Positions 2,316-54,714 of a stretch of 64,000 nt of DNA are shown piece by piece. How positions within the stretch are numbered: position 1 is the stretch's first letter; the number at the start of each line of letters is the position of its first letter. The translations under genes were made by a program, and so were the position numbers. The DNA comes from Microcaldota archaeon. Its GTDB lineage: Archaea; Micrarchaeota; Micrarchaeia; Micrarchaeales; Micrarchaeaceae. The notes beneath the pieces are model-generated. The model was not told where the DNA came from. It saw only the letters and a list, made by a program, of their open reading frames with translations, and made no database searches. The stretch lies in NCBI GenBank assembly GCA_021810105.1, contig JAJZJM010000001.1, positions 124,001 to 188,000 of the forward strand. Reading direction: 5' to 3'.

Positions 2316-2378
2316 CTTCATAGAAAACCTGGATGAGAATGCCTGCTGCGCGTACAGCACAGAATTCGTTTATTCTTT

Positions 2379-10525: not shown

Positions 10526-10680
10526 TCAATTACCCAATGCCAGTTACACCAAAAGCATGCTGAGGCATCTATGGTATACTCAACCCAAATTTATAATAAT
10601 GAATATATTTGCCGGAGAGATTGCATGTGGATAGAATACATTCCGGCAGATGAAGCACAAATATAGAAAGCAGTTTCGGC

Positions 10681-10742: not shown

Positions 10743-11367
10743 CAATTATTAGTATTATGATTATGACCAGTATCGCTATTGCAGCTATCATTAGATAGGT
10801 GTTGTTTGGCGAGCCTGCTGTAGATGTTGGTGATGTTGTGTATGCCACTGTGGTGGGCGGAGTAGGCTGTTTGGAAACGGTTGTTGTTGGAGTATTTGAT
10901 GTGCTGTTTGAAGATACAGTTGTTGTTGCAATTGTGGTAGTTACAGGGGCTCCAAGCACTGTAAGCGAAACAGTCCCGCGAGGATGCCCGTTTAGATTGT
11001 CAGAGCACCCTGGAGATAATCCAACGGAATAATTTGTTCCCGGGGGTGTATTTTTACCTGCAATTATTGTAAGCGTTCCATTGAATGGTGGAGTTCCTGA
11101 ATCCGGATATATGGAAGCGGATATGTTTAGAGACTGTAGATAATTATTATTCGGTATGAACAGGCAAGTATTTCCTGCGGATCCGTTTATTAGAATAATT
11201 TTAAATGAGACAGTTCCTGTAGCACCCTGATTGAGTGTCAGATTTGTTGGATTTATTGATGGTACAGCAGTTCCTATGTTTTGCGCAAATGAAACCCCGG
11301 TTATAAGGAATGAGAGAATAAGAGCTGCAAGTATCGGCATTCTTGCGTATCCAATTTTGAACATCAA
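10720..11367 (-). CDS. Secreted, C-terminally anchored surface protein with Thr-rich stalk
   Basis: About 215 residues. A signal peptide (roughly 1-28, ending ITGVSFA) is followed by an immunoglobulin-like segment with sequons such as NLT and NGT. A Thr/Ser/Pro-rich stalk occupies about 140-185 (TTTIATTTVSSNSTSN and similar). A membrane helix YLMIAAIAILVIIIILIIV with a basic tail WLTKK ends the chain. This is a cell-surface anchored topology. The domain SINPTNLTLNQGATGTVSF resembles small beta-sandwich modules of archaeal surface proteins, but no named family was recognised. It sits among glycosylation genes and is a plausible target of AglB. The last codons are duplicated just downstream. 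Confidence 0.72.
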   Translation of the reverse strand: MMFKIGYARMPILAALILSFLITGVSFAQNIGTAVPSINPTNLTLNQGATGTVSFKIILINGSAGNTCLFIPNNNYLQSLNISASIYPDSGTPPFNGTLTIIAGKNTPPGTNYSVGLSPGCSDNLNGHPRGTVSLTVLGAPVTTTIATTTVSSNSTSNTPTTTVSKQPTPPTTVAYTTSPTSTAGSPNNTYLMIAAIAILVIIIILIIVIWLTKK

Positions 11368-15711: not shown

Positions 15712-17439
15712 TTATCGCTTTCTTTTCTCAACTAGGAAGTTGCCTATTGCAAGATACCTGGCGCCCGTGTTCATGAGCGTCCAGATTGCATCCTCCGGAG
15801 TCCTAACTATCGGAAATCCGTGCTTATTAAAGCTGGTGTTAAGTAGTGCTCCAATGCCTGTCTTCTTTCTGATCCTTTCAAGCAGCCTTCTGTATAGCTG
15901 GTTCTCGTTTCCAAGAATCTGCGGCCTTGTCGTCATGTCTATGTGTGATGCTGCGGAAATTTCGCCGAACCTTTCCGGCCTTACCCTGTAGCCTATAGTC
16001 ATGAACCTGCTCTTTCTTGGGTACGGGTCAAGAAGTTTATCCGCATCCTCTTCCAGTATCGTGCTGGCAAACGGCTGGTAGTACGGCCTTTTTTTTATTA
16101 TTATGTTTATCTCGTCCCTGTTCTTTTGGTTGTTTGGCATTGCAAGCACGCTCCTGTTGCCTAGCGCCCTGGGGCCGAGCTCCATCCTTCCCTGGAACCA
16201 TAAAACGATCTTGTTCTCTTCTGCAAGCATCTCTGCGCACCTGCCGGAGATGTCCTTCTCCTCTTGATAAACTATTGCCCCCTCCTTCTTGTGCCTCTGC
16301 AACGCGTTCTCTATTTCGCTTGAGGAATATTCTGGGCCGTAATATATGCCCTCTACCTGCCTGGCATTAAACTTTCCATTTTGGACGTAATCAGCATAGT
16401 ATGCGGCTCCCAACGCAAGGCCGCCATCTCCCATCTGAGGTGCAACAAAAAAGTCCTTCACTTCGTGCAGCTCGTTTATAAGCATGTTCACTATTATGTT
16501 TGAGAATACGCCTCCAGCTACAGCAATCCTTCTTATTCCAGTCTCTTTTATATACTGCTTCACTATCTTTAGCACCTGCTCCTCTAGATGCCTCTGAACA
16601 GCGTATGCAAAAGCCTCCCTGTTATACCTCCATAGTATCTTGTCCCTGAGATGCTCTGCAAGCAGGAATTCGTACTTTATGCCAGAGTCGCTAACAAGCT
16701 GCCGCTTTTTCTCGTCGTACCTGGAGAATCTGCCAAGCTCCTTTATTTCCGAGGGATATGAATACGCAGCCAGGCTCATGAGTTTACCTTCATCCTCGCT
16801 GTAACGCATGTCGCATGCAAGTGTTGCAGCGCCGAAGAGAGCTCCAATACTGCACGATGCCCTAAACTCGTTTATCCGGTTGAGCTCTCCATTGTCCCCT
16901 ATGCTAATGCTGCCGCTCACGCCGTCCCCGCCTCCGTCCAGAGTGATCACTAGCGCCTCCTTGAATCCTGATGCATAATAAGCGGAAGATGCGTGCGCCA
17001 GGTGATGCTCTACGAATACAGGTTTTTGCTTTATCCCCATCCTGCGCAGCCTTGCTCCTATTGTTGCATTTCCTACTGCAATGCCAGCGGCCTTCCAGAC
17101 TGCCCTAGGCCTTTGATCCTGTATCGTCTTGAATAGCGCATTTGTGATGTGCATTCTGAATCTTGTTGGCTTCTTGCCTTCCTTTCTCCAGAGCCTAAGC
17201 CTCTCCTCCTCTATTTTTGGAAATATCCTTGTGAAGATTACGCTGCCGCCTATCCACGGAATCGCAACTCCGGATATCTCTTCCCCAGACTCCATAAGGT
17301 ATTTTATAGAATGCTCGGGAAAACCTACGTCGTTCTTCCTCTTTGTGAACCTCTCCTCGTTTACAGCTGAGGCTACGCTGCCATAAGATACAAGCCCTGC
17401 GCCAGCGTCGTGCGCGTTGTGGACTCCGAGAATGGCCAT
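15712..17439 (-). CDS. Carbamoyltransferase, NodU/TobZ/CmcH family (copy 2)
   Basis: About 575 residues. It starts MAILGVHNAHDAGAG, with NEERFTKRKND and then EHHLAHASSAYYASGF near residue 140 and LDGGGDGVSGS. The C-terminal domain has GRMELGPRALGNRSVLA near residue 410 and ends GALLNTSFNKHGFPIV. It shares family motifs with the copy at 2379-4169 but differs throughout, so it is an old paralogue or a separate acquisition rather than a recent duplication. It could modify a different hydroxyl or sugar. Spacing of 30 bp to the PMT-like gene suggests one transcript running into the surface-protein gene. Confidence 0.9.
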   Translation of the reverse strand: MAILGVHNAHDAGAGLVSYGSVASAVNEERFTKRKNDVGFPEHSIKYLMESGEEISGVAIPWIGGSVIFTRIFPKIEEERLRLWRKEGKKPTRFRMHITNALFKTIQDQRPRAVWKAAGIAVGNATIGARLRRMGIKQKPVFVEHHLAHASSAYYASGFKEALVITLDGGGDGVSGSISIGDNGELNRINEFRASCSIGALFGAATLACDMRYSEDEGKLMSLAAYSYPSEIKELGRFSRYDEKKRQLVSDSGIKYEFLLAEHLRDKILWRYNREAFAYAVQRHLEEQVLKIVKQYIKETGIRRIAVAGGVFSNIIVNMLINELHEVKDFFVAPQMGDGGLALGAAYYADYVQNGKFNARQVEGIYYGPEYSSSEIENALQRHKKEGAIVYQEEKDISGRCAEMLAEENKIVLWFQGRMELGPRALGNRSVLAMPNNQKNRDEINIIIKKRPYYQPFASTILEEDADKLLDPYPRKSRFMTIGYRVRPERFGEISAASHIDMTTRPQILGNENQLYRRLLERIRKKTGIGALLNTSFNKHGFPIVRTPEDAIWTLMNTGARYLAIGNFLVEKRKR

Positions 17440-17487: not shown

Positions 17488-18549
17488 TCAGAGTAGCGAT
17501 GCTATTCTTCCGGTTATTATCTGGTATGCCTCGCAGGATGTCCATTCATCTGGCTCCCTACCCTCTGTTATGTCCTTCCTTACCTCGTTCGACGCCTGGC
17601 TGCTGAGTATAGGGACGAGATCGTAGCCAGACTCTCGTATATTGCCAACCTTCTTGTTCCACATTATTGATGGGTATACGTTTCCCCAGCCATCCATGAA
17701 CACAGATGCCTCGAGGCTCCTGCATTTCATAGGGCTCTTTCCAGTCTTAGCGAATTCTATGAGTTTTTTTAGGAATGCGTTCTCCACAACCATCATTGGG
17801 TCCAGAGAAGGCTTTCTTTTCTTAAGCACTCCAGAGAGCTCATCAGCTGCAGCTGGGCCATCGGGCCTTATGTCAAGCGTACCGTTCTGATAATAGTTCT
17901 CAGAGACCTGGGCGAGGTTTATATGAAAGTCATTGTATGTCACTTCAGGAAAAATCATTTTAACCTCTTGGAATGTCCTATCGAACTGCCCTTGATTGAA
18001 CTTGCTCATAGTATAGCCGAATACGAAATCCAGGTTATTGTATTCTTTCTGCAGCCTCTTTATCATTCTGCAGTTCTCCATGACCTTATCGAAATTTCCA
18101 GGTATGCCCCTTATCTTGTCATGAAGTTCCCTGTAGCCGTCCAGGCTCAAGGTTATTGCGACTCTAGGTATGCCTAGTGCTAGGATCTGCCTGAGCCTTG
18201 CCTCGACAGTGGCGGGGTTGCACAGGGAATTTGTTGGCATTGTCATAAGATAGAGACCTTTGCAATTGTCCTTGAATGCCCTTGCTATTTCCACTATGTC
18301 GCTCCTTAGGAATGGCTCGCCTCCTGTTATTGTTATCCATTTGAAGTAGCCATTCTTCTTTGTAAATTCCCTTATCTCATCTATAGTAAGCTCATTCTTC
18401 GGCCTTATCTCCCATATATTGCAGGTAATGCATCTGCTTTGGCAGTTGTATGTTATGGAGAAGTTGAGCTTGAAAGGCCTGTCCAGCCTTGTTATGTTGG
18501 ATTTCAGCGCAGTGAGCGCCAGGCTCGCGAATCTCTGCTTTGATGCCAT
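17488..18549 (-). CDS. Radical SAM protein, SPASM-like
   Basis: About 353 residues. The radical SAM core has ITYNCQSRCITCNIW (canonical CX3CX2C, near residue 35), TITGGEPFLR and a glycyl-type loop ITLSLDGYRELHDKIRG. Cysteines near the C-terminus (CRSLEASVFMDGWGNVYPS, then WTSCEAY) resemble a reduced auxiliary-cluster region. ATG 18549 is preferred over TTG 18555. Its partner and substrate are unknown. It sits next to the carbamoyltransferase, so sugar or lipid modification in the glycan pathway is conceivable. It reads away from hppA across a structured intergenic region. Confidence 0.82.
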   Translation of the reverse strand: MASKQRFASLALTALKSNITRLDRPFKLNFSITYNCQSRCITCNIWEIRPKNELTIDEIREFTKKNGYFKWITITGGEPFLRSDIVEIARAFKDNCKGLYLMTMPTNSLCNPATVEARLRQILALGIPRVAITLSLDGYRELHDKIRGIPGNFDKVMENCRMIKRLQKEYNNLDFVFGYTMSKFNQGQFDRTFQEVKMIFPEVTYNDFHINLAQVSENYYQNGTLDIRPDGPAAADELSGVLKKRKPSLDPMMVVENAFLKKLIEFAKTGKSPMKCRSLEASVFMDGWGNVYPSIMWNKKVGNIRESGYDLVPILSSQASNEVRKDITEGREPDEWTSCEAYQIITGRIASLL

Positions 18550-18588
18550 AATCAAATTTCTCGCCTTAAATATTTAAATGTAGGTCAT

Positions 18589-21089: not shown

Positions 21090-22013
21090 TCAAGGTGTAC
21101 TGTACCCCGAAGTCCATGCGCTAGTGTAGATTACGTTTGTGGCTGTGCCGCTGTTTCCATTTCCTGAATAATCATTGGCATTACCATTGAGAGGCCACCA
21201 TCCAACAAGGTTGTTGATATTAATTGGAGCGCCGCCAATTCCTTCCTGATAAAGGGCAGTTATCTCTGACTGTGACAAGGTTGTATTGTAAAATTGAAGG
21301 TTGGCTAAACTTCCATTTATTCCTCCTCCAGTATACGCTCCGGGGCATCCGCTGCCGCTAATTCCAATTACCGATCCAGGATCATTATATGTAGAAAGCG
21401 ATTGGCTATAAATTTCTTGGCTTGCAACTGTATCTGGAGAGCCACCGTCTATATATACACTAAGCGTACCAACTCCGTTCCCTCCTCCTGTAAGAGTCAC
21501 GGTTACCATGCTCCACGAGTTGAGAGGCGCCACGCTATTAGGAAAGCTAGAGAAAATCCAATTACCACGATTCCATGTGCCCATGTACGTGACTGTATTA
21601 AGTGTTACATAATAAAAGCTACATCCCGGTGCCTGTTGTGATATCCCTGCGTATTCAGAAATTATTTGTGCAGGATAAGCTTTAGGATACACCCAAAAAT
21701 TAAAAGTATATGAGGGAAGGAAATCTCCAGGGTTTGTATATAATGTGATATACCCATTGTTCATTACACCTACATACTCAGGCAGCATTCCATTGCACTG
21801 CCCAGCAAGGGAGGTCTGTGCAGAAGTTTTGATTACCTGACATGATCCTGGCTGCGCCCTTGGAGCGAAATTTGCGCTGTTGAATATTCCTAAGGAGAAA
21901 AGCGCAACTAGTACAATCGCAATTATGAGTATTGCCCAGCCGTATGTCATCAGGTACTCCATTGCTGATTGAGACTTTTGACTTTTAAATTTAGAATAAT
22001 CAAACTTTTTCAT
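21090..22013 (-). CDS. Prepilin-like LamG surface protein (copy 1)
   Basis: About 307 residues. It has a basic leader (MKKFDYSKFKSQKS), a predicted prepilin-peptidase site before QSAMEYLMTYGWAIL (Glu at +5 of the mature form) and a hydrophobic helix to about residue 45. A conserved neck contains PGSCQVIKTSAQTSLAGQC. A divergent LamG/concanavalin-like domain spans about 80-250, and a conserved tail holds GWWPLNGNANDYSGNGNSG and ends TSAWTSGYSTP. The start at 22013 matches copy 4, whose equivalent upstream ATG is absent; ATG 22022 is also possible. Probably a pilin or pilus-tip adhesin binding carbohydrate. The ends are nearly identical to copies 2-4. Confidence 0.8.
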   Translation of the reverse strand: MKKFDYSKFKSQKSQSAMEYLMTYGWAILIIAIVLVALFSLGIFNSANFAPRAQPGSCQVIKTSAQTSLAGQCNGMLPEYVGVMNNGYITLYTNPGDFLPSYTFNFWVYPKAYPAQIISEYAGISQQAPGCSFYYVTLNTVTYMGTWNRGNWIFSSFPNSVAPLNSWSMVTVTLTGGGNGVGTLSVYIDGGSPDTVASQEIYSQSLSTYNDPGSVIGISGSGCPGAYTGGGINGSLANLQFYNTTLSQSEITALYQEGIGGAPININNLVGWWPLNGNANDYSGNGNSGTATNVIYTSAWTSGYSTP

Positions 22014-22079
22014 TCTCTCCATATAAGTAAGGTAAAAAAGTATAAAAACCTGTTAGACACGGGATTTTGAAGAATCATT

Positions 22080-22982
22080 TCAGGGCGTACTGTACCCGGA
22101 AGTCCATGCACTTGTGTAGATTACGTTTGTGGCATTGCCGCTGTTTCCATTTCCTGAATAATCATTTGCATTGCCATTGAGAGGCCACCACCCTATAAGG
22201 CTGTTCAAATTGATCGGAGCACCCCCTATTCCTTCTTGGTAGACGGCTTGAATCTCGTTTGCTGAAAGGGATGAATTGTAGATTTGGACATTTGCTATAT
22301 ATCCTGCATAAAAATTATCTACGCCGCATAAACCATGACCCCCTATAATAACATTAGAATACTGAACGATAGGTGTGGGAGTAGGGTTAAAGCTTCCTTC
22401 ATTAAATCCATTAACGTATCCCTCTTCTGTAACGCTGTTATATGTTATCGCAATAAAGTTCCAACCGCTTACAACATGAGAGGAAGTCCAATCTAGATCG
22501 TCATTCCAAAAATAATTTCGAAATTGGTATAAATTACTCCTTGTACGCAATGTATTATCCTCTGCAGTTATTCCGCTAATCCCCCAACATAACAAATCTT
22601 GAGCATCATAATTATTTGAAGCTAAATACACCCAAAGTACTTTTGTAAATTGACTGTTTCCTAATGGCAATTGTTTTTGCGGAACATTTATTTCTATGTA
22701 GCTGCTCTGCCCGTTGAATTGCGCCACATACTGAGGCAGCATTCCATTGCACTGACCAGCAAGAGAGGTCTGTGCAGAAGTTTTGATTACCTGACATGAT
22801 CCTGACTGCGCCCTCGGCACAAAGTTTGCACTGTTGAACACACCCAATGAGAACAGTGCAACAAGGACAATCGCAATTATGAGTATTGCCCAGCCGTATG
22901 TCATCAGGTACTCCATTGCAGACTGGGATTTTCGAAATTTAATGCAAGTATATCTGCTTTTAATGAACGGCGGCCGCCTCAT
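22080..22982 (-). CDS. Prepilin-like LamG surface protein (copy 2)
   Basis: About 300 residues with the same plan as its downstream neighbour: a basic leader, QSAMEYLMTYGWAIL, a single helix and a neck ending LAGQCNGMLPQYV. The LamG-type domain contains FNGQSSYIEI, GWNFIAITYNS and ANVQIYNSSLSANEI, followed by the conserved GWWPLNGNANDYSGNGNSG tail. In the first 70 residues it differs from copy 1 at only about four positions after the processing site, while the central 150 residues are largely unrelated in detail. Its leader (MRRPPFIKSRYTCIKFRK) is unlike the others. About 60 bases separate it from copy 1. Confidence 0.8.
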   Translation of the reverse strand: MRRPPFIKSRYTCIKFRKSQSAMEYLMTYGWAILIIAIVLVALFSLGVFNSANFVPRAQSGSCQVIKTSAQTSLAGQCNGMLPQYVAQFNGQSSYIEINVPQKQLPLGNSQFTKVLWVYLASNNYDAQDLLCWGISGITAEDNTLRTRSNLYQFRNYFWNDDLDWTSSHVVSGWNFIAITYNSVTEEGYVNGFNEGSFNPTPTPIVQYSNVIIGGHGLCGVDNFYAGYIANVQIYNSSLSANEIQAVYQEGIGGAPINLNSLIGWWPLNGNANDYSGNGNSGNATNVIYTSAWTSGYSTP

Positions 22983-31350: not shown

Positions 31351-31369
31351 AGACTATGAACCATAGTCT
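31351..31369. terminator. Hairpin between micropeptide and regulator fragment
   Basis: Arms AGACTATG and CATAGTCT with a 3-base loop overlap the stop of the regulator fragment and lie downstream of micropeptide 1. The matching site in unit 2 (about 32229-32245) retains only a weak stem. Probably a bidirectional terminator. Confidence 0.4.
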
Positions 31370-31903
31370 TCCTGTTTCTTTTGTTCCTTTTTGTATAAAT
31401 TTATTAATTGCTCATACTGGCTAGTGTACATTTTATCGAATTTTCTGTATGGGATACATCCCAGAAGCACTTCTGTGATGATTAATTGGTAGGTACTTAT
31501 TCCATTAACAAATTTAGTAAGCTCTTCTATTGCGAGATCTGCATCCCCTTCACTGAAGACGGGCATGATTAATATTACTCCTTCTGGCATGTTAATGTCC
31601 CCTACCAAAACGAATCTATCGGAGTAGGCTGAACTCTTCTCTTCCAAAAGGTACTCTAAAAACCTTTCTCTTGAGTTCCAGAATGCATTCTGATTTTTTA
31701 TCTCAATAATTATTACCGAATTGTATCTGATGCTGAGTTTTTTACATGTTATAGATACCCTTTTGATAACGTCCTTTTCTTTTAGTCTATTGTACGTGTG
31801 CTTTGCATTCCCTTTTGCCATATTGCCCTTTCTTTCTATTTCTGCAAATGGAACAACACCATCGCTGTTTAACTCCTTCAAAACAGAGTATTCACTTTTC
31901 AAT
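31354..31903 (-). pseudogene. Truncated copy of the double-Lrp-like regulator
   Basis: Matches the last ~183 codons of the full regulator at 32231-33631 with about eight amino-acid differences and no stop or frameshift. The copy begins at the second HTH (QLLKSEYSVLKELNSDG) and lacks the N-terminal part. Its open frame runs back to 32007 through antisense pelota sequence, giving an artificial N-terminus. It has no obvious promoter. The intact frame means it could still be made as a free HTH plus ligand-domain protein. Confidence 0.75.
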
Positions 31904-31991
31904 AGCTGCGAGAATAAGGATAAGCATAATAAATTCCGATGATGAGGTAGGAGTTCAACTGCACTCTTTTGGAGATATTGTATGTATGTGA
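31904..31991 (+). pseudogene. Duplicated pelota 3' fragment
   Basis: Copy of the final pelota codons (AARIRISIINSDDEVGVQ to the stop) created by the tandem duplication. The two visible base changes within the codons (TCT to TCC, TGC to TGT) are synonymous, which fits a recent origin or gene conversion. It has no start of its own. Confidence 0.85.
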
Positions 31992-32120
31992 TGCTTTTCC
32001 AACGCAACGCATTGGGATTGACGTCACGTTATTATATTATCTTTCCATAAAAATGGACTTAAAATAAGATGCTAACCTATTTAAGTTTTGCCATAGATGC
32101 TTATTTAGAATGGTGAAAAT

Positions 32121-32230: not shown

Positions 32231-33631
32231 CTATAGACCATAGTCTTCCTGTTTCTTCTGTTCCTTTTTGTATAAATTTATTAATTGCTCATACTGGCTA
32301 GTGTACATTTTATCGAATTTTCTATATGGGATACATCCCAGAAGCACCTCTGTTATGATTAATTGGTAGGGACTTATTCCATTAACAAATCTAGTAAGCT
32401 CTTCTATTGCGAGATCTGCATCCCCCTCGCTGAAAACAGGCATGATTAATATCCCTCCTTCTGGCATGTTAATGTCCCCTACCAAAACGAATCTATCGGA
32501 ATAGGCTGAACTCTTCTCTTCCAAAAGGTACTCTAAAAACCTTTCTCTTGATCTCCAGAATGCGTTCTCATTTTTTATCTCAATAATTATTACCGAATTG
32601 TATCTGATGCTGAGCTTTTTACATGTTATAGATACCCTTTTGATAATGTCCTTTTCTTTTAGTCTATTGTACGTGTGCTTTGCATTCCCTTTTGCCATAT
32701 TGCCCTTTCTTTCTATTTCTGCAAATGGAACAACACCATTGCTGTTTAACTCCTTCAAAACAGAGTATTCACTTTTCAATAGCTGTGATTCGGATGGCCT
32801 GAGACTTTCCCTTGTTCTGCCCCATACCTTATCGCGCAGAACCTCAAACATTTCATTCCGTAGAGGAATAAATCCCTTGGTTACATTAAAACTGGTTGCA
32901 TACCATCTAGAAGTAATTTTGACTAAAGAATTCAGATTCTTTATTCTGCGGAGTATTATCGAAAAATCATTATTGCTCTCAGCCAGTATGTGCAGTATCA
33001 TATCATATTTGCCGTTTGTAAGCGCGGCAAACTGCACTTGAGGCAGTTTACTTAAATCCTCTTTCACCCCATCCGGGTTTGGCTTCCTTTCAGAAAATTT
33101 TACAAGTACTAAAAACTCTATGAAACCCAACCTTTCCAGTTTTATGTGGGGTATGTACCTTATCCCTAATTCCTTTTCCAGCCTTGTAATCTTGTTCTCC
33201 AATTTTTTTTCATCTACGCCTAGTTTTTTTGCCATAAAAGATACAGGCATTCTACCATTCATTGTGAGATTCCTAAGTATCTTTATGTCGAGGTCTGAAT
33301 ACTCTTTTTCTGAAGTTTCTTCATATGCTCTTTCTTCACTTACCTCTGGTAACAATACCTTTCCTCCATGGGCGAGTATTACAGCCTTTGCAATCTCTAT
33401 CTCGTTATTTGAGTTCTTTATGCCCTTGACTATAAATATTCCTGAAGAGGTTATCTTGCCCAAATATTCTGTTTCTACAATTTCTGTTTTGTTGAGCGTC
33501 TTGTTTCTTTTTGATATTTGCTTGTATACGTAATAACGGCCATTTATCCTTCTTAGAACTATTGGGAACTCGTAGTTCTTCCTTAGCTCCCCAAATTTAA
33601 CGTATACAGGCTCTGGAACCTTGTCTATCAT
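32231..33631 (-). CDS. Transcription regulator with two Lrp-like HTH/ligand modules
   Basis: About 466 residues. Residues 1-80 are a beta-rich domain (YYVYKQISKRNKTLNKTEI, EYLGKI). A first winged helix is at about 115-165 (LDIKILRNLTMNGRMPVSF, AKKLGVDEKKLENKITRLEK) followed by a RAM-like alpha/beta domain (VQFAALTNGKYDMILHILAE). A second HTH starts near 283 (SEYSVLKELNSNGVVPFAEI) followed by another ligand-type domain to the end. The arrangement suggests a ligand-responsive DNA-binding protein. A perfect inverted repeat spans its start codon, consistent with autoregulation. The 3' half is duplicated upstream. The ligand is unknown; the neighbouring micropeptides are candidates only by position. 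Confidence 0.7.
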   Translation of the reverse strand: MIDKVPEPVYVKFGELRKNYEFPIVLRRINGRYYVYKQISKRNKTLNKTEIVETEYLGKITSSGIFIVKGIKNSNNEIEIAKAVILAHGGKVLLPEVSEERAYEETSEKEYSDLDIKILRNLTMNGRMPVSFMAKKLGVDEKKLENKITRLEKELGIRYIPHIKLERLGFIEFLVLVKFSERKPNPDGVKEDLSKLPQVQFAALTNGKYDMILHILAESNNDFSIILRRIKNLNSLVKITSRWYATSFNVTKGFIPLRNEMFEVLRDKVWGRTRESLRPSESQLLKSEYSVLKELNSNGVVPFAEIERKGNMAKGNAKHTYNRLKEKDIIKRVSITCKKLSIRYNSVIIIEIKNENAFWRSRERFLEYLLEEKSSAYSDRFVLVGDINMPEGGILIMPVFSEGDADLAIEELTRFVNGISPYQLIITEVLLGCIPYRKFDKMYTSQYEQLINLYKKEQKKQEDYGL

Positions 33632-42440: not shown

Positions 42441-42469
42441 AAAATAAAAAGACGGAGAAGAAGTTTGCA
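42441..42469 (-). promoter_or_regulatory. 23S processing stem, 3' arm, with T-rich terminator
   Basis: GGAGAAGAAGTTTGCA (42454-42469, plus strand) is the exact reverse complement of 45305-45320. The two arms would pair around the whole 23S transcript. Just beyond it the minus-strand transcript runs into GTCTTTTTATTT, a likely terminator. Confidence 0.8.
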
Positions 42470-45304
<2,835 letters not shown>

Positions 45305-45495
45305 TGCAAACTTCTTCTCCTCGAATCAATCGCCAAACAGGCGATCTCACAAATGCAGCAAGAGAGATTATGGACTCTGTTAACGTATTTTCATCAAGCA
45401 GAAAAAAGCCTTCAAATACAGAAAAGAGCCTATAAGAGCTCAGTTGCCATAATAGCACCGAGCTATTATAATGTAGAATAAGGTATAAATAGGTT
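45305..45495 (-). promoter_or_regulatory. 23S leader, processing arm and promoter
   Basis: TGCAAACTTCTTCTCC (45305-45320) is the 5' arm of the processing stem. About 165 bases upstream a TATA-like element, read on the plus strand as GGTATAAATAGG (45482-45493), is placed to drive the rRNA. A leader hairpin with GAGCTC and GCTCGG elements lies between. Confidence 0.6.
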
Positions 45496-45509
45496 GCTGT
45501 GAATTGCGG

Positions 45510-46060
45510 CTATTCTTTTCCTGCCATAGATAATACCTCATCGAGTGCTGGTTGTAGATCCCTTATGCCTGCTTCGTCTTTTATGTGCGATAGGGAGTGC
45601 TCAACTATTATCTTGGCGCTTAGTTCCTTTTTGAATATATCTGCCTCAGAAAGTGCGACAAAAAGATCATCATCAGAGAATATAGCGGTGATTTTGCACG
45701 TAGGCACATGGTTCCGTATAGCCTTCCAATCGATTGGTGTTTCAATCCATGGCTTTGCTATCTCACGGTCTTCTGGGGCCTCATATGCCGCCTCTGTTAG
45801 ATGTATCCACGGTGCCACAAGAATCACACACCCCCACTTGCAGTCCATGTTGCAATGTGGTGAGATATCTAAGCACGGCCTGGCATCCTATACTATGGCC
45901 TATAAATATTGTTTCTGGGTCTGGCTTTCCAACAATATCGGCTAGATGTTTAATCCATGCATAGATCTTCGGTTTAGCAGAATCGGGCATCAAAGGTGCA
46001 CCAAGGATTTCAACGTGAAAAAGTTCGAAAGGATGGGCTTTGAAAAGAAGATGAATTTCA
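45510..46060 (-). pseudogene. RBBP9/YdeN-type serine hydrolase, truncated and frameshifted
   Basis: Minus-strand reading gives FELFHVEILGAPLMPDSAKP and then ETIFIGHSIGCQAVLRYL, which holds the nucleophile motif GHSIG. The frame shifts near 45830 and continues as CVILVAPWIHLTEAAYEA, FSDDDLFVAL (acid residue) and a His region (VEHSLSHIKDEAGI). Homologues start about 25 residues earlier with an HGW/HGT motif and NWFPWL, which are missing here. The break lies at the stop of the next gene (46079), as if that DNA had replaced the 5' end. Confidence 0.75.
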
Positions 46061-46078
46061 TGTAGAGGAAGCTGCAGC

Positions 46079-47296
46079 CTATATGCTTTCAGAATTGATT
46101 ATTATTCTTTCGAACTTGGTTCTAGGTTTTGTATCTGTTGTTACAAGCCCAGCTCCACGCAATTTGTTTACATAGGAACTTACATTGCTTAACTGCATGC
46201 TGGTTTTTTTTGCTATTTCTGACAAGGTCATTTCGCCATTGCAACACGCCAAAACTTTCAGCACAGCCTTGCTCTTTAACAAAATGCTCATCTCCAAAAA
46301 TTTTAACTTCGAGTCTATAACAATTTCTTTTCTCTTTATTAGTGTCTCGCTGTTTGTCCTGCTCGCAACACTGTTCAGTATACTGTAAAGATAACCCGAG
46401 ATATGCTCCACGTCAAATTTAGGCTTTTTTATCAGCGTTGTTCTTATGCCTAACTTCGAAAAGAATGCAAACAATGGCATTATTATGTTTTTATAAAGCT
46501 CAGCGTAGTCGGTCTGCTTTAAATCTAACTTTTGTAATATGTTCTTTATTTCTTCTGTGCTGTTTCCACACATCGGCAAATTGTCATTGTATGAAATAAA
46601 GGGAACATGTTTCATTTTTAAGATTATCGGTGTCTGTATGCCTTTTGATAAGGTATATGTACTCTCTGACAGTATATCCCTCAGTCTGGTGTAGGCCTGT
46701 GCCCGTTCACTGGATGTTATGAAAAACAACGGGTTGCCCTCATCCTTCTTGTACAATTTGGAGAAATTTTTCGCAATGTAAATATCAAACGGCCTCTGGA
46801 AAATGTGATGCGCCCCGCTATAGAAATTCTTATCTTTTGAATACAGATCAAAAGTTATTTCACTGAGGAAACTGTAAAACCCAAAAAATTCGGTTTTATT
46901 TTGTGCGCAGGCAAACCACGCATCGGAAGCCTTAAATATATCTACATTTTCAACATTGGCACCCATGACTTTCAATAAAAGCTCTATTTCCTCCAATATC
47001 TGTTCGACATACCTTGCAAGAGAGGTATTATTCTTCGAAAGGAGGTTCCTTCTCACCCTTTGATGTATGATAAAATTGTTGTCATGCAATACGATGGAAA
47101 CCTTATGCCCCAAATTCGTAAGCGCCGATATGAGAGAAAGGGCATGTATCGAGAGGTAATTCGGTGTTATATAAGTTATCGGAATTATAAAATGCGTTTT
47201 ACCGGCAATTTTCTCAACATCAAAGCGCTCTCCGTTATCGTAGTTTGTCATACCCTCTTTGACATAATCCGTATAGAAATGCTCCAAAGTACCCAT
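46079..47296 (-). CDS. Unknown protein: Rossmann-like N-terminus and C-terminal winged helix
   Basis: About 405 residues. The N-terminal third looks alpha/beta (THFIIPITYITPNYLSIHAL then NLGHKVSIVLHDNN), like a nucleotide-binding or HUP-type fold, but no HIGH/KMSKS motif or Walker motif is present. The middle is mostly helical. Residues about 345-400 form a winged helix (LKVLACCNGEMTLSEIAKKT, LSNVSSYVNKLRGAGLV). ATG 47296 fits a leaderless start from ATAAATATAAC; TTG 47308 and GTG 47305 are alternatives. It is divergent from the radical SAM operon and shares its promoter region, so it may regulate it. No family recognised. Confidence 0.65.
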   Translation of the reverse strand: MGTLEHFYTDYVKEGMTNYDNGERFDVEKIAGKTHFIIPITYITPNYLSIHALSLISALTNLGHKVSIVLHDNNFIIHQRVRRNLLSKNNTSLARYVEQILEEIELLLKVMGANVENVDIFKASDAWFACAQNKTEFFGFYSFLSEITFDLYSKDKNFYSGAHHIFQRPFDIYIAKNFSKLYKKDEGNPLFFITSSERAQAYTRLRDILSESTYTLSKGIQTPIILKMKHVPFISYNDNLPMCGNSTEEIKNILQKLDLKQTDYAELYKNIIMPLFAFFSKLGIRTTLIKKPKFDVEHISGYLYSILNSVASRTNSETLIKRKEIVIDSKLKFLEMSILLKSKAVLKVLACCNGEMTLSEIAKKTSMQLSNVSSYVNKLRGAGLVTTDTKPRTKFERIIINSESI

Positions 47297-47308
47297 ATAG
47301 TCCACCAA

Positions 47309-47389
47309 ATTGTTATATTTATTGTATAAGTTATATATTATAACAAATATAAATATATATTACATACAGTGTATACTTTTCTGGATGGA
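47309..47389. promoter_or_regulatory. Divergent promoter of the radical SAM island
   Basis: Very AT-rich. GTTATA and TATAAC arms around TAT (47330-47344) form an inverted repeat between two TATA-like elements, one toward the HTH protein (near 47317-47327, minus) and one toward the operon (AATATAAATATATA, about 47346-47360, plus). It is a candidate shared operator. Confidence 0.5.
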
Positions 47390-48400
47390 ATGGAGAGCGC
47401 AATGGAGTTGATGGTTCAGCAAAAAAAGCACAAATCTTCGCTGGTGAACATAAGAATAGACAAAACCGTACCTACCGGCACACCGGTGCTTAGACGATTA
47501 TGTAATGAGAATTGTAATTTTGACAGCCGATTAAACATCAAATGCCACGAAGATAACTCGTACAGAGCTGTTTTTGGCCAGAACGCCATAGGTAATGAAG
47601 GTTTTGTAGGTATTGTGAGCCGAATCGCCGCGGTAAGTCGTAGGCGGACAAGCATCCACATCGCTGGTGACGGTGAACCAACCCTATTCGAAGAGGAATT
47701 ACTTGATCTGGTATCAAGGCTTAAGGCCCTTAGTGATGTGGAAAGCATAAAAATAACAACAAACGGCACAAGATTGAGTGGAGGTCAGCCAACCCTTGCT
47801 GCGAGACTGAAATCCGCTTCCGTAGATGGTCTGAACATTTCAATTCACTCGCTTACCAGGGAGGGTTTTAGGGAGGTCACACACATCGACGCACTACACC
47901 TCGCTTTAGCGGGTCTGGATGCCGCTGTAAATGCTGGCCTGTACGTGAGTGTGAACTGCGTAGTTAGAGATCAGACCTTTGAGGAGGTGGATAACTACAT
48001 AAAATTATCTATTGAAAAGGGGGTTAAAATCAAATTTTTCTGCATGCTCTCTGAGAACCAGGAAGCTCAGGAATACGCATATTCGTTGGTCGACAGACTT
48101 GACAAGGTCCTCACCCAAAAGGCGGATTCCATTGGCCATTATGTGTTGCCGTACGCTGGGAAAATATTTAAGATTGGAAAGGCCATAGTGGAGCTTAAGG
48201 ACACCAGGATTAATAGCTGCCCAAACACAAAATGTGTGGTCAGAACCCGTTGCACAGAGGGTTGCAGATATCACGTAAGGATCACGCCTACTGGTGTTAT
48301 ACAACCATGCGGTATAAGAACGGATAACCTAGTCAAATTTACGACTGAGGTTACCGATGGCGAGATATTCAATGCATTAAGAAGCGGAGGTAAAGTTTAG
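47390..48400 (+). CDS. MoaA-like radical SAM enzyme with CX3CX9C motif
   Basis: About 336 residues from ATG 47390 (GTG 47369 possible). The cluster motif reads LCNENCNFDSRLNIKCHEDN: two cysteines spaced as usual, but the third comes ten residues after the second, as if seven residues were inserted before the common CHxE. HIAGDGEPTLFEEEL replaces the usual GGEP loop, and IKITTNGTRLSG and LNISIHSLTREGFREV follow. The C-terminal CPNTKC, then CTEGCRYHVRITPTGVIQPC, resembles the auxiliary 4Fe-4S site of MoaA. First gene of a four-gene operon with 8-base and smaller gaps. Substrate unknown. ATA dominates isoleucine codons less than in neighbouring genes. Confidence 0.75.
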   Translation: MESAMELMVQQKKHKSSLVNIRIDKTVPTGTPVLRRLCNENCNFDSRLNIKCHEDNSYRAVFGQNAIGNEGFVGIVSRIAAVSRRRTSIHIAGDGEPTLFEEELLDLVSRLKALSDVESIKITTNGTRLSGGQPTLAARLKSASVDGLNISIHSLTREGFREVTHIDALHLALAGLDAAVNAGLYVSVNCVVRDQTFEEVDNYIKLSIEKGVKIKFFCMLSENQEAQEYAYSLVDRLDKVLTQKADSIGHYVLPYAGKIFKIGKAIVELKDTRINSCPNTKCVVRTRCTEGCRYHVRITPTGVIQPCGIRTDNLVKFTTEVTDGEIFNALRSGGKV

Positions 48401-48408
48401 GTGAGATT

Positions 48409-48939
48409 ATGATAGAAATAGAGACAAAAATAGTAGATTTTGACGTAAACAGACTGAGAGCGAAACTTAAGCAACGGGGTGCGGCCAGTTCTGGCGAAAT
48501 ACTGCAAAGAAGATGGATTTTTAATTTATCCAAGAATGAGGGCGAGGACGAATTCATAAGGGTCAGGACCGACGGTAAAAAATGTACAATCGCATACAAG
48601 CACAGGAAGGGCGATAAGCTCGGGAATACCGAAGAAATTGAGGTGTCAACGGACGACTTCGATAGCTCCGCAGAAATATTTTCGAAGTTTATCAAAGACA
48701 AGAAATACCAGGAAAATAAAAGGGAAACCTTCATACTCGGCGAGGTGGAAATAACCATCAACAGGTGGCCTATGATCGCGCCGGTTGTGGAGATAGAAGC
48801 GTCCAGCGAAAAGAAGGTAAGAGACACAATAAAGGAATTGGATATTGGCGGTAGAGAGCTGGGCAATATCGGATGGGAAAAGCTCTACAAGCAATATGGA
48901 ATAGATTTGAATGCGTATGAAGTCTTAAAATTCAAATGA
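48409..48939 (+). CDS. CYTH-domain protein (class IV cyclase / triphosphatase)
   Basis: About 176 residues. It opens with the diagnostic ExExK motif (MIEIETKIVDFD), followed by alternating charged strands (FIRVRTDGKKCTIAYKHRKG, EEIEVSTDDF, RETFILGEVEITINRWP, APVVEIEAS), as expected for the eight-stranded tunnel that binds triphosphates with metal ions. Known members hydrolyse inorganic or organic triphosphates or make cAMP; which applies cannot be told from sequence. Second gene of the island operon. Confidence 0.85.
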   Translation: MIEIETKIVDFDVNRLRAKLKQRGAASSGEILQRRWIFNLSKNEGEDEFIRVRTDGKKCTIAYKHRKGDKLGNTEEIEVSTDDFDSSAEIFSKFIKDKKYQENKRETFILGEVEITINRWPMIAPVVEIEASSEKKVRDTIKELDIGGRELGNIGWEKLYKQYGIDLNAYEVLKFK

Positions 48940-48943
48940 TTTT

Positions 48944-49585
48944 ATGGTAGTGATATCGATAGATGGTGTGGACGGCGCGGGGAAAACAACAGTAGCAGCA
49001 TTACTCGCAAGTGCTATTCCAGCAGAAGTGGTGAAAACCCCGCTAAAGGAATTTTTGCCCGACATTAAGAGCTTTCTGGATAACAGTCCTGAGAACACGC
49101 TTGCGCGTTTCGTATATTTCATGTGTGGGAACAAGCACGCATGCGACGTCTTGACACTGAGATACAATGGAAGCCTATCCGAGCAAAATATAGTTTTTGA
49201 TAGGTACAAATATTCAACCTTAGCCACGCACCTTGCTCTAGATGAGATGTTTTCCGGAGGTGTAAATATAGCACGCCTCCATCAAATCGCAGATAAGACC
49301 AGTGAAGCGCTCATGAAGCCCGACCTTATTGTATTTTTGTACGTCGATTATGATGTAAAAACACAGAGAATTACGCTGAGAAAGAATCCAGCAGATACAA
49401 AACTTGATAACAATAAACAATTCTCAGAAAGAACTGAAACTCAACTTAGATCTTTGGCTAGAAGTCTTAGGGCTGAAGGAGTTAATGTACTTGAACTTGA
49501 TACAACAAAAGAGAGTCCCGAAGCCATAAGAGACGCAATAATTGCGGCTGTGCCAAATAGGGTAAGGCTTATTGCTAGAACCTAG
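48944..49585 (+). CDS. Thymidylate-kinase-like P-loop nucleotide kinase
   Basis: About 213 residues. Walker A is SIDGVDGAGKTTVAALL at the N-terminus, the DRY-type motif is IVFDRYKYSTLATHLAL near 90, and a lid-like region is KTQRITLRKNPADTKLD near 147. The fold is that of dTMP kinases, but the usual FxREP segment after the P-loop is replaced by VVKTPLKEFLP, so the phosphate acceptor may differ from dTMP. Spacing of four bases from the CYTH gene indicates coupling. Confidence 0.8.
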   Translation: MVVISIDGVDGAGKTTVAALLASAIPAEVVKTPLKEFLPDIKSFLDNSPENTLARFVYFMCGNKHACDVLTLRYNGSLSEQNIVFDRYKYSTLATHLALDEMFSGGVNIARLHQIADKTSEALMKPDLIVFLYVDYDVKTQRITLRKNPADTKLDNNKQFSERTETQLRSLARSLRAEGVNVLELDTTKESPEAIRDAIIAAVPNRVRLIART

Positions 49586-49596
49586 GTGTATTACAA

Positions 49597-49941
49597 ATGG
49601 TTTTTTGTCAAAAATGTCACGCTTTGCTAAGACCAAGCATAGATGGGGAGTCTGTCATTAGCAAGTGCCTGCGCTGCGATTACAGTGAAACAAAGCCATT
49701 AACAAACGTAGAACCGCCGCAAGTTGTACTAAGGGCAGAGGTTTTGAACGGAGCTACAAATAGATTCATTTATGATTCAACTCGGGAAAATGTAGATCAC
49801 CATTGTGACTTTTGTGGGAATGACAAGGCCTATGCAGGAGAGATAAAGCCCAACCGGTTCAACGATGAGCAGAGCGTTTTTACATTCACATGCACTGATT
49901 GTGGCAAAACAACGAGGGAATACTCTTCAGGTAGTGGTTAG
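49597..49941 (+). CDS. TFS/TFIIS-like transcript cleavage factor
   Basis: About 114 residues with two zinc ribbons. The N-terminal one is FCQKCHALLRPS with CLRCDYSE. The C-terminal one is HHCDFCGNDKAYAGEI, then FNDEQSVFTFTCTDCGKT. The acidic pair DE at the ribbon tip, which in TFS/TFIIS reaches the polymerase active site, is present, so RNA cleavage activity is plausible. It ends the operon, 11 bases after the kinase. Whether the genome has another TFS elsewhere cannot be seen, but location in an island suggests a specialised paralogue, as with the virus-induced TFS4 of Sulfolobus. Confidence 0.83.
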   Translation: MVFCQKCHALLRPSIDGESVISKCLRCDYSETKPLTNVEPPQVVLRAEVLNGATNRFIYDSTRENVDHHCDFCGNDKAYAGEIKPNRFNDEQSVFTFTCTDCGKTTREYSSGSG

Positions 49942-49959
49942 AAATAAAGAATATTGGTG

Positions 49960-50335
49960 TTATGTCTCTTCGTCTATGTACTTGGAACGGAACTTCATGA
50001 AATATTCCTAAAGCTCTACGGTCGTATATGACGTGGCATTTATCCCATGTTTCTTCGTATCGTTTTCGTCGATAAGACGTTTCATTTTCCTCTTCGTCTT
50101 CTTTTGTGATTGAGGGAGGCCGGCCGCTTCGCGGTTTATCCGAAACACTCTCTTCCGTTACCCACTTCTTTATCCAGTCGTAGGCCGTAGACTCTTCGAC
50201 ATCTACGAATTTTGCAGCCTCTGCAACACTGAAACCTCTGCTCGCCGCATAGAGTGTCATATGCTGTGTTTTTTCTTTCGCATCTTTACAGTTTCTGTAC
50301 CGTTCTCTAAGGGTGTTGGAGTCGTTTTCCAACAT
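49960..50335 (-). mobile_element. IS630-type transposase N-terminal remnant
   Basis: The first ~80 codons (start 50335) encode an IS630-style HTH: SRGFSVAEAAKFVDVEESTA, YDWIKKWVTEE and KPRSGRPPSITKEDE. The frame then shifts, and the continuing product can be read as MKRLIDENDTKKHGINATSY, TTVEL, a stop, EYFMKFRSKYIDEET. One frameshift and one stop mark it as dead. The DDE catalytic part is missing. Confidence 0.75.
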
Positions 50336-50396
50336 ACTGGTCGCAAAAGAAGATACAATGCGAAAGTTTCTGATTTATGCGAGTTTGGGACAAAAG

Positions 50397-50510
50397 TCAA
50401 CCATAACCCATCCTGAATAAGTTATGGAGAACTGCGATGCAGGTTATCGCAGTATCAACCCTATCACCCCACCTCTGAAGAGCGTGGGATTTCTCGCTAT
50501 GATATGTTAA
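50397..50510 (-). mobile_element. Possible transposase C-terminal fragment
   Basis: The minus strand reads TYHSEKSHALQRWGDRVDTA followed by ITCIAVLHNLFRMGYG and a stop, a pattern like the last helices of several transposase families (tryptophan, then HNLFR). It abuts the 3' end of the YbjQ gene. No start or catalytic part exists, so it would be a fragment. Assignment is tentative. 50336-50396 shows nothing else. Confidence 0.35.
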
Positions 50511-50908
50511 GCTTCGTCTTCCGCGCTTGCACTTCTGGTAGGTATTACAACTGTTGGGGATTTGCCTCCTTTTGAGCCCACATATTTTATAGCCGTGCCT
50601 ATGGCAGTTATCTCCATCCATTCGTTGTTGTGGAGGTACTGGACCTTTAGCTTTACTCCTATTACACCATCAGCTCCGAGCTTTTCAGCCTCTGCCTGCA
50701 TCCTGCCCAATGCCATCTCCCTTGCATTGTACATTAGCTCTGTTATCTGCGTTAGCTCTCCCTTTGCCATTCCTTTTATACCTGTTGCTATCCCCCCGGC
50801 TACACCCATACTGTAAACAGAGTTTCCCAGCACCAGCGCTACAGGCATATAACCCGCATCTTTTAGCAACCAGAAATCGCTTGTTGATATGTCGCTTGTG
50901 AATGCCAT
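50507..50908 (-). CDS. YbjQ/UPF0145 family protein
   Basis: About 133 residues. Family pattern: ALVLGNSVYSMGVAGGIATG, then ELTQITELMYNAREMALGRM, AEKLGADGVIGVKLKV and ITAIGTAIKYV. The N-terminus differs from short YbjQ by an extra STSDFWLLKDAGYMPV segment. These proteins form pentamers of unknown function, once annotated as heavy-metal-binding. Single gene on the minus strand. Confidence 0.85.
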   Translation of the reverse strand: MAFTSDISTSDFWLLKDAGYMPVALVLGNSVYSMGVAGGIATGIKGMAKGELTQITELMYNAREMALGRMQAEAEKLGADGVIGVKLKVQYLHNNEWMEITAIGTAIKYVGSKGGKSPTVVIPTRSASAEDEA

Positions 50909-52774: not shown

Positions 52775-52892
52775 ATATTAATGGACTATTCCTAATGAAT
52801 AGTGAGACCAATATTAATTCAATCTTGTCTCAATATTAAAAATGAGTTTTAGAAAAGTATTTATTGCTTCTTTGAACAACATAATTGAGAAG

Positions 52893-53753
52893 ATGCTTCG
52901 TATACAAACGTTTCAAAAAGGAATGAGAGCTCAATCAGCAATGGAGTATCTGATGACATATGGATGGGCAATTCTGATTATTGCGATCGTTCTTGTTGCG
53001 CTTTTCTCCTTGGGAATATTCAACAGCGCGAACTTTGCACCGAAAGCGCAGCCGGGTTCATGTGAAGTGCTCAGAAACTCTGCACAGACATCTCTTGCGG
53101 GACAATGCAATAACATGCTGCCCGCGTATGTGGCGCAGTTTAACACTACTGCATTATCTAATATAACAACAAGCAATGTACCAGCTTTAGCTCCTAATTC
53201 TGGAGATAAATACACCGTAACATTTTGGATAAAACCTCTCCTCCCAACAGCCTATGGTTGGAACGGTGTAGCCATTGCACCTCTTTCGGTTCCATTTCAA
53301 ATTGGATGGTGGACTGACTATTCACCAAATGGCGTAGACTGGATAGTTGGAAATCCCCCTACCCAGCAAGATACTTGGGCATTTATAGTTGTAAATGGAA
53401 CGGTAGGCGGTACTGGATGGATGTCCATAAATGGAGGTGGATTTACAACTAACAGCGCAATTGTAGTATCTCCGGTAGGGTCTACGAAGTATACCTTTGG
53501 ATCTATATATTACTGTTGCCACATAACCGCTATGATGTCTAATATCCAACTCTACAACACACCTCTATCAGCAAACGAAATTCAGGTACTCTATAAGGAA
53601 GGAATAGGCGGCGTACCTGTCAATGTCAACAACCTTGTTGGATGGTGGACTCTGAACGGCAATGCGAACGATTACTCTGGTTATGGTAATGATGGTACAG
53701 CAACAAATGTCGTATACACCAGTGCGTGGACTTCTGGATACAGTGCACCATAA
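52893..53753 (+). CDS. Prepilin-like LamG surface protein (copy 3)
   Basis: About 286 residues. A basic leader MLRIQTFQKGMRA precedes the processing site and QSAMEYLMTYGWAIL, then a neck PGSCEVLRNSAQTSLAGQC. The central LamG-like domain (YTVTFWIKPLLPTAYGW, TWAFIVVNGTVGG, MSNIQLYNTPLSANEI) is distinct from the other copies, and the tail GWWTLNGNANDYSGYGNDG ends TSAWTSGYSAP. ATG 52893 is preferred because TATTTATT (52858-52865) lies about 30 bases before it; ATG 52842 is also open. It is the most diverged of the four in its tail. Confidence 0.78.
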   Translation: MLRIQTFQKGMRAQSAMEYLMTYGWAILIIAIVLVALFSLGIFNSANFAPKAQPGSCEVLRNSAQTSLAGQCNNMLPAYVAQFNTTALSNITTSNVPALAPNSGDKYTVTFWIKPLLPTAYGWNGVAIAPLSVPFQIGWWTDYSPNGVDWIVGNPPTQQDTWAFIVVNGTVGGTGWMSINGGGFTTNSAIVVSPVGSTKYTFGSIYYCCHITAMMSNIQLYNTPLSANEIQVLYKEGIGGVPVNVNNLVGWWTLNGNANDYSGYGNDGTATNVVYTSAWTSGYSAP

Positions 53754-53820
53754 CCTGATCATTTCCAAATCAGATATCTAACATGTTTTTATATTTTTTT
53801 ACCTTACTTCTATAGAGAGA

Positions 53821-54714
53821 ATGGAAAAATTCTATTATTCTAAATTTAAAAGTCAAAAGTCCCAATCTGCAATGGAGTACCTAATGACATACGGATGGGC
53901 AATTCTGATTATTGCGATTGTTCTTGTTGCGCTTTTCTCCTTGGGAATATTCAACAGCGCGAACTTTGCACCACGCGCGCAGCCAGGTTCATGTGAAGTG
54001 CTCAGAAACCCCGCGGAAACCTCTTTGGCGGGGCAATGCAACGGAGAACTGCCACAGTATGTTGCAGAATTCAATGGTGCTAGTAGTTATATATATGCGA
54101 ATTCTTCAAATTTAAATGGAGGGATGTCACAGCTCACATTAGCCGCATGGGTTAAGCCCAATAATTTCTATTCATATATGAACATAATTCATGATGAAAG
54201 CGCATACATTCTCAATCTGGATAGTAATAATATTATTCTATTCAGTATAGCAAACCTGGGAGGATCATGGAGTTATAGTCTATACGCTACAGCACCCCAA
54301 CAAATCAATCTAGGAACTTGGTATTTTGTTTCAGCAACGTGGAACGGAAATGAAATGTACACTTACCTTAATGGACAGGAAAGCGGTTCTACATCTACCA
54401 GTTCGAATTCAATAAATGTAGTTAGCGGACCTACAGATATAGGAGTTTGGGGAACATGGAATTTATGCCAAGCATGTGATGTGTGGAATGGGAGTATAGC
54501 AAATGTCCAAATCTACAACACCTCACTATCAGCAAATGATATTCAAGCTCTCTACCAAGAGGGAATAGGGGGTGCGCCCATTAATGTCAATAACCTTGTT
54601 GGATGGTGGCCGCTGAACGGCAATGCGAACGACTACAGCGGAAATGGGAACAGCGGCACTGCCACTGGGATAACATACACCAGTGCGTGGACTTCTGGAT
54701 ACAGTGCACCTTAA
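53821..54714 (+). CDS. Prepilin-like LamG surface protein (copy 4)
   Basis: About 297 residues. The leader MEKFYYSKFKSQKS is almost that of copy 1, although the genes are 32 kb apart and on opposite strands. QSAMEYLMTYGWAIL, a helix, and the neck PGSCEVLRNPAETSLAGQC follow. The LamG-like centre has FNGASSYIYANSS, QLTLAAWVKPNNF, GTWYFVSATWNGNEMYTYLN and ANVQIYNTSLSANDI. The tail holds GWWPLNGNANDYSGNGNSG. Its stop abuts the stop of the pilus ATPase gene with no gap. Confidence 0.8.
   Translation: MEKFYYSKFKSQKSQSAMEYLMTYGWAILIIAIVLVALFSLGIFNSANFAPRAQPGSCEVLRNPAETSLAGQCNGELPQYVAEFNGASSYIYANSSNLNGGMSQLTLAAWVKPNNFYSYMNIIHDESAYILNLDSNNIILFSIANLGGSWSYSLYATAPQQINLGTWYFVSATWNGNEMYTYLNGQESGSTSTSSNSINVVSGPTDIGVWGTWNLCQACDVWNGSIANVQIYNTSLSANDIQALYQEGIGGAPINVNNLVGWWPLNGNANDYSGNGNSGTATGITYTSAWTSGYSAP

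Follow-up and report, generated by a model that had tools for sequence, protein, structure and literature searches.

A recurring gene module in Micrarchaeota

What might an archaeon of the Micrarchaeota do with an operon that joins a radical S-adenosylmethionine (SAM) enzyme to a CYTH protein, a nucleotide kinase and a transcript-cleavage-type factor? We addressed this question in a window of 64 kb from contig C3 of an 821 kb genome (G000 in the comparisons below), in which a sequence-only reading had picked out four tightly spaced genes at 47390-49941 as an island operon that could make or handle a modified nucleotide. Analysis of the window and its relatives revealed that the four-gene cluster is real and part of a larger recurring module, a co-inherited, horizontally transferred gene set. 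Its near-constant core is the radical SAM gene, a gene for a P-loop nucleoside or nucleotide kinase, and a divergent gene encoding a putative tyrosyl-tRNA synthetase (TyrRS)-like domain and a winged helix-turn-helix (HTH), referred to here as the regulator. The four open reading frames (ORFs) are packed on the + strand at 47369-49941, with intergenic gaps of 8, 4 and 11 bp; the first is open from a GTG at 47369, with the ATG at 47390 in frame.

In a survey of 301 Micrarchaeota genomes, the radical SAM family was found in 11, of which nine match with E < 1e-90, G249 has a broken copy and G261 retains just a C-terminal remnant. The regulator occurs in 10, a weak match in G076 being left out. Both are present in nine genomes, nine of the ten that bear the regulator, giving a hypergeometric P of ~1e-14 with genomes taken as independent and ~3e-10 by genus, both optimistic given shared descent and transfer, since relatedness was left uncorrected. 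The families are found together again in other Micrarchaeota, so the grouping of the four genes is not by chance, and they co-occur as a unit in variable positions, in agreement with the earlier reading of an island operon. Neither of the outcomes that would have counted against that reading was found, namely homologues that never co-occur or clean clustering of the radical SAM gene with a known non-nucleotide pathway.

As a fixed set of four the operon fared less well (Table 1). The genes recur as a unit, but CYTH is absent from the variants with a uridine-kinase-like gene, and the TFS-like gene is accessory, being linked to this radical SAM family at only 4 loci and to a different radical SAM gene at one more. 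A P-loop kinase gene lies beside the radical SAM gene nearly always, in three arrangements and from two kinase families, either thymidylate kinase (TMK)-like with CYTH and often a TFS-like gene, or uridine-kinase-like with Nudix at some loci. The accessories are CYTH, Nudix, HD, dCMP-deaminase-like and TFS-like genes, the first four from families whose substrates are phosphorylated compounds or nucleotides, and both the kinases and the phosphate-handling partners are interchangeable. In G260 and G261 the regulator gene is unlinked to the radical SAM gene and adjoins TMK-like, dCMP-deaminase-like and CYTH genes of its own.

Table 1. Order of module genes by genome; a slash sets the regulator side apart
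Genome	Gene order
G000	regulator / rSAM-CYTH-TMK-TFS
G133	regulator / rSAM-CYTH (then contig end)
G134	regulator / TMK-rSAM-CYTH-TFS
G117	rSAM-CYTH-TMK-HD-TFS
G249	TMK-rSAM(broken)-CYTH-TFS
G260	TMK-rSAM-CYTH-PfkB
G261	rSAM(remnant)-CYTH-PfkB
G155, G180	Nudix-regulator / rSAM-uridine-kinase-like
G119	regulator / rSAM-uridine-kinase-like
G135	regulator / rSAM (no kinase found)
G218	TMK-rSAM'-CYTH (rSAM', sister radical SAM with canonical motif)
G229	regulator / TFS-rSAM (variant, NF045502)-TMK-like

The G229 locus keeps the regulator, TFS-like and kinase genes, and its radical SAM gene is replaced by a different non-canonical one. This variant (locus L089, G229 C7:1-16000, at 3543-4802) has the motif CX8CX2C, and a gene for a Nudix-containing protein lies on the regulator's other side. 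Pairs of TMK-like and CYTH genes without a radical SAM gene were seen at L190 (G268, 2816-4100) and L193 (G172, 8749-10062), possibly a smaller related unit, and at L195 (G118, 2065-3042) a CYTH gene immediately precedes a module-type TFS-like gene.

A MoaA-like radical SAM protein with an altered cluster motif

The sequence-only reading assigned the four products as a MoaA-like radical SAM enzyme, a CYTH protein, a thymidylate-kinase-like enzyme and a TFS-type factor. These identities held, as divergent members of their families, since all four score under the curated equivalog cut-offs. For the radical SAM protein, PF04055 is matched with 43.3 bits (gathering threshold 29.5) and the best curated family is MoaA (4.7e-27), with scores of 94.9 against a cut-off of 231 and 91 against 325 bits on the MoaA equivalog models. 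In place of the canonical CX3CX2C, all core members have a CX3CX9C cluster motif, whose cysteines C45, C49 and C59 are invariant in the family alignment, whereas the sister protein in G218 (25% identity) has a canonical CNENCFFC at the equivalent position. Most simply, seven residues would have been inserted between the motif's second and third cysteines. Because variant cluster motifs are known in other members of the radical SAM superfamily, such as ThiC and HcgA, the variation is no ground for excluding the protein from it. In the literature collection searched, no description of a radical SAM motif of the CX3CX9C form turned up, which is no proof of novelty. Also in the alignment, a GEP motif is invariant, a set of C-terminal cysteines is conserved and a C-terminal GG is near-invariant.

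The AlphaFold2 model of the protein (predicted local distance difference test, pLDDT, 83, and ~65 around the motif) allowed the comparison with viperin and MoaA that had been suggested: in Foldseek it was nearest to MoaA (6.5e-12), then AbmM (2.4e-10), with viperin at ~3e-6. A profile search of the PDB at 1e-5 matched MoaA and AbmM only, AbmM (8wm2, 1.5e-9) being one of three sequence matches.

Could the protein then simply be the MoaA of molybdopterin biosynthesis? MoaA, the GTP 3',8-cyclase, is its closest curated family and shares its fold, a C-terminal Cys cluster region and a C-terminal GG tail, which in MoaA is functional. The scores of 91-95 bits against 231-325 on the MoaA models, the altered motif in place of CX3CX2C, the extra C-terminal cysteines and the unrelated neighbouring genes all point elsewhere. 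The role was ruled out because MoaC is absent: it was found in 0/13 module genomes, while a control search recovered it in 11/14 reference genomes. We therefore consider molybdopterin synthesis very improbable indeed.

A divergent gene for a probable regulator

The divergent gene is a fifth member that the sequence-only reading had not included, and its co-occurrence with the radical SAM gene is tighter than that of the TFS-like gene. Its C-terminal winged HTH gives HTH_IclR/ArsR Pfam matches at residues 348-392. The AlphaFold2 model of its N-terminal domain (mean pLDDT 71) has TyrRS as best Foldseek match (3.2e-8, TM ~0.4-0.5), and the best 50 PDB matches of the protein model are all TyrRS, tryptophanyl-tRNA synthetase (TrpRS) or engineered variants of these. 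Neither the HIGH nor the KMSKS signature is conserved in the family alignment, and the protein was not among the loci that the genome yielded to a PF00579 search. A profile comparison (hhalign) of the HTH protein with the PF00579 loci gave no signal, a weak test because in 2/3 loci the longest ORF chosen was not the synthetase. Outside Micrarchaeota, 72 other archaeal genomes yielded no homologue except a match to the winged helix only (9.8e-6).

From the models and domain matches we infer that the protein is a regulator whose sensor domain is synthetase-like but dead. NadR and BirA are enzyme-derived regulators that sense ligands, with a nucleotide-binding enzyme domain fused to a DNA-binding HTH; unlike in these, the enzyme part here appears to resemble TyrRS/TrpRS and is without HIGH and KMSKS. 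No operator motif common to the divergent genes was found across relatives, several of which have only AT-rich inverted repeats.

Kinase, CYTH and TFS-like proteins

The module kinase scores 53.7 bits on PF02223 (gathering threshold 27), has the P-loop and DR-Y motif in its alignment and has dTMP kinase as best curated match (1.1e-14). On TIGR00041 it reaches 54.5 bits, under the cut-off of 83.25, and the separate canonical dTMP kinase of the host scores 162. A PADLOC match of the kinase to PDC-M51B (4.4e-20) was rejected as non-discriminating because the host dTMP kinase scores nearly as high (63.9 against 70.2 bits). By profile comparison, the alternative kinase family of the module is uridine-cytidine-kinase (UCK)-like.

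The best curated match of the CYTH protein is the class IV cyclase/CYTH family cyaB, and its ExE(xK) strand has E3, I4 and E5 invariant; the Pfam CYTH model was not reached by the window protein. Its family profile matches the archaeal triphosphate tunnel metalloenzyme (TTM) Saci_0718 (1.7e-13), and the uridine-kinase profile of the module is matched by plant TTM1 (1.7e-13), in which kinase and CYTH domains are fused. Unlike these proteins, the module has separate kinase and CYTH genes, joined to a radical SAM gene. Orphan CYTH genes are common across Micrarchaeota, and CYTH was rejected as a module marker because its presence alone is uninformative in a phylum where standalone copies are widespread.

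The TFS-like protein scores 30.1 bits on TIGR01384 (cut-off 64.75), and its profile matches RPA12 (1.5e-10). The catalytic DE pair noticed earlier is confirmed, with R87, D90 and E91 of the catalytic hairpin invariant in four homologues. Because the R..DE residues are kept and RPA12 is matched, a transcript-cleavage role is possible.

Transfer, maintenance and loss

Neither the radical SAM gene nor the regulator gene was found in eight genomes of the same genus. Between G000 and G133, the module proteins are 83-91% identical (radical SAM protein 91%) against 48% for TruD, and the radical SAM tree pairs members of different families (G134 with G260, G000 with G133), in conflict with the species groups, the TruD comparison tree taking in only part of the set. 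The dN/dS values for G000 against G133, 0.07-0.13, indicate purifying selection and thus that the module genes are maintained. Decayed radical SAM genes are seen in L038 (G249, 10200-11260, frame breaks) and L039 (G261, 3867-4097, C-terminal remnant only); these copies imply that the module is dispensable.

Carriage by a virus or plasmid was considered and rejected. Neither the radical SAM nor the HTH protein had relatives in viral contigs, the radical SAM protein had none in plasmids and the HTH protein none in phages; a phage search with the radical SAM protein gave nothing beyond a partial match of 31%, in two records from Enterococcus phages.

A candidate nucleotide-modifying module

We propose that the module is a mobile unit that makes a modified nucleotide and both phosphorylates and detoxifies it, an explanation that we find as easy to credit as to doubt. 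Nucleotides are the substrates of MoaA, AbmM and viperin, the structural neighbours of the radical SAM protein. The MoaA-like protein would alter a nucleotide by means of a 5'-deoxyadenosyl radical, probably aided by a C-terminal auxiliary cluster; the kinase would move the substrate or product up the mono-, di- and triphosphate ladder; and CYTH (or Nudix or HD) may remove or process the triphosphate, lessening self-poisoning. The TFS-like protein would engage the RNA polymerase of the host, where transcripts that the product has stalled may be its targets for cleavage, and the dead synthetase fold of the divergent protein would sense a nucleotide-like ligand and control the divergent promoter. 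The earlier suggestion that a TFS factor could rescue the polymerase from transcripts ended by a chain-terminating product is compatible with this hypothetical scheme. A product for conflict, antiviral or anti-competitor, is most likely, over one for housekeeping.

The analogy with viperin-type enzymes drawn by the sequence-only reading holds in part. Prokaryotic viperin operons pair viperin with a nucleotide kinase, and the module, like the pVip/SAND operons, has a MoaA-fold radical SAM gene next to a (d)NMP-kinase-like gene; on VakA, the PADLOC profile for kinases associated with viperin, its kinase reaches 52 bits, against 37 for the host dTMP kinase. The radical SAM protein itself is no viperin: it fails the curated model NF038283 (24.1 against 180 bits), reaches 29 bits on PADLOC pVip, is closer to MoaA, and differs further in its CX3CX9C motif and in an auxiliary set of C-terminal cysteines. 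The module also adds CYTH, TFS-like and TyrRS-like/HTH genes. Its logic appears to resemble that of viperin-kinase operons and of the 4'-thiothymidine cluster (thmABC), which encodes a radical SAM enzyme, a nucleoside kinase and a nucleoside triphosphatase giving self-resistance (PMC12691670). The combination of radical SAM enzyme, nucleoside kinase and self-resistance triphosphatase is a likeness to both this and the albomycin (AbmM/AbmG) cluster, whereas AbmM is only distantly related in sequence and the module kinases are of the TMK or UCK type. We know of no counterpart to the regulator and the TFS-like gene in thionucleoside clusters.

Several observations weigh against a nucleotide-modifying module. 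SuiB, PqqE and anSME are also among the Foldseek matches, and MoaA-like folds also serve peptides and other substrates; SAM cleavage could suffer from the change in the cluster loop. The G135 locus has no detected kinase, and the TFS-like gene of the module type is absent at the G260, G155, G119, G180, G135 and G218 loci. Finally, the strongest identity contrast may be inflated because the G133 and G135 loci lie on short contigs of metagenome-assembled genomes (4-5 kb, coverage 2-3; for the G133 copy, 4.25 kb and coverage 3) and could be mis-binned. The G133 caveat touches neither the pairing of G134 with G260 nor G260, G119 and G000, whose contigs are long.

The missing TFS-like genes bear also on a role in RNA polymerase or transcription control, with the TFS-like and HTH proteins as effectors and the enzymes making or destroying a nucleotide signal for the TyrRS-like domain. 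Such a role would agree with the conserved transcript-cleavage hairpin residues and with G229, where TFS-like and HTH genes stand together with a different radical SAM gene. It seems quite improbable to us, as a protein missing at six loci cannot be core.

Nucleotide salvage, or cofactor or tRNA modification, is an alternative that we consider unlikely but take seriously. Here the radical SAM enzyme would alter a nucleotide-derived cofactor or tRNA precursor scavenged by auxotrophic episymbionts, with kinase, CYTH and Nudix trimming and charging it and the TyrRS-like protein acting as a metabolite-responsive repressor. Micrarchaeota are genome-reduced, and the uridine-cytidine type among the kinases and the dCMP-deaminase-like gene at one site are consistent with this. 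However, an accessory conflict trait would better account for the patchy island distribution (11/301, absent in eight genus mates), the between-family transfer and the decay seen in G261 and G249, and this alternative would leave the TFS paralogue unexplained.

Returning to the modified nucleotide, a fuller version of our proposal is tentative, and we doubt it more than we credit it: the module may represent an undescribed mobile archaeal family in which a CX3CX9C radical SAM enzyme makes a nucleotide product, a TFS paralogue and a CYTH triphosphatase give protection and a dead TyrRS fold regulates, a counterpart in episymbionts of viperin defence or nucleoside antibiotics.

The variable island and other features of the window

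The island setting proposed earlier is supported (Table 2): same-genus DNA homology is lost after 45508 and returns from 50514. Besides the module, the island span holds an HTH ORF of transposase type and, between the 23S rRNA gene and the module, a broken serine hydrolase gene (PF06821-like, frameshifted, 45510-45993, - strand). In G205 the distance from the 23S gene to HPP-TruD is ~1.1 kb, too short for the module. The complete archaeal 23S rRNA gene (42461-45313, - strand) directly adjoins the island, and no tRNA or 16S genes were found in the window.

Table 2. Coordinates of the module and its island in the window
Feature	Position	Strand	Basis
Variable island, 23S rRNA to YbjQ/HPP/TruD genes	45509..50513		homology break at both ends
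Divergent gene, putative degenerate TyrRS-like (HUP fold) domain with C-terminal winged HTH, probable regulator/sensor	46079..47308	-	Foldseek of AlphaFold2 model; Pfam HTH
AT-rich intergenic region common to divergent gene and operon, probable promoter/operator	47309..47389		sequence
MoaA-like radical SAM protein	47390..48400	+	PF04055 5.6e-11; Foldseek MoaA
Non-canonical cluster motif C45-NEN-C49-xF-x7-C59 (CX3CX9C)	47501..47545	+	alignment of family A2
CYTH/triphosphate tunnel metalloenzyme	48409..48939	+	cyaB 3.1e-9; Saci_0718 profile match
Divergent TMK/dNK-like P-loop (deoxy)nucleotide kinase	48944..49585	+	PF02223 2.8e-14; PF01712 3.6e-11
TFS/TFIIS-like two-zinc-ribbon protein with R..DE hairpin	49597..49941	+	TIGR01384 6.1e-7, under cut-off
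Transposase-type HTH ORF (remnant), right edge of island	49886..50335	-	HTH_29 7.3e-9; HTH_23 1.1e-6

Elsewhere in the window, repeated surface-type proteins with a common QSAMEYLMTYGWAILIIAI N-terminus are encoded at 21090-22982 and 52842-54714, as two pairs on opposite strands. Two carbamoyltransferase-like genes (NodU/CmcH type by eye) lie at 2379-4169 and 15712-17439, the latter adjoining a gene for a radical-SAM-looking protein at 17488-18555. An Lrp/AsnC-looking HTH protein is duplicated at 31354-32007 and 32231-33631 (- strand), the first being a partial copy of the C-terminal half of the second.

Implications

To our knowledge the module is undescribed; it is of the radical SAM plus nucleotide kinase kind, and both its cluster motif and its regulator are unusual. 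Its proteins are small and apparently soluble, so that substrate, product and sensor ligand are directly testable. If our proposal is correct, CX3CX9C would add to the variation known for cluster loops of radical SAM enzymes, a tRNA-synthetase fold would have given rise to a new regulator class, and kinase-linked radical SAM nucleotide chemistry would have an independent mobile form in ultra-small archaea, with built-in candidate self-protection by a TFS paralogue and a triphosphate tunnel enzyme.

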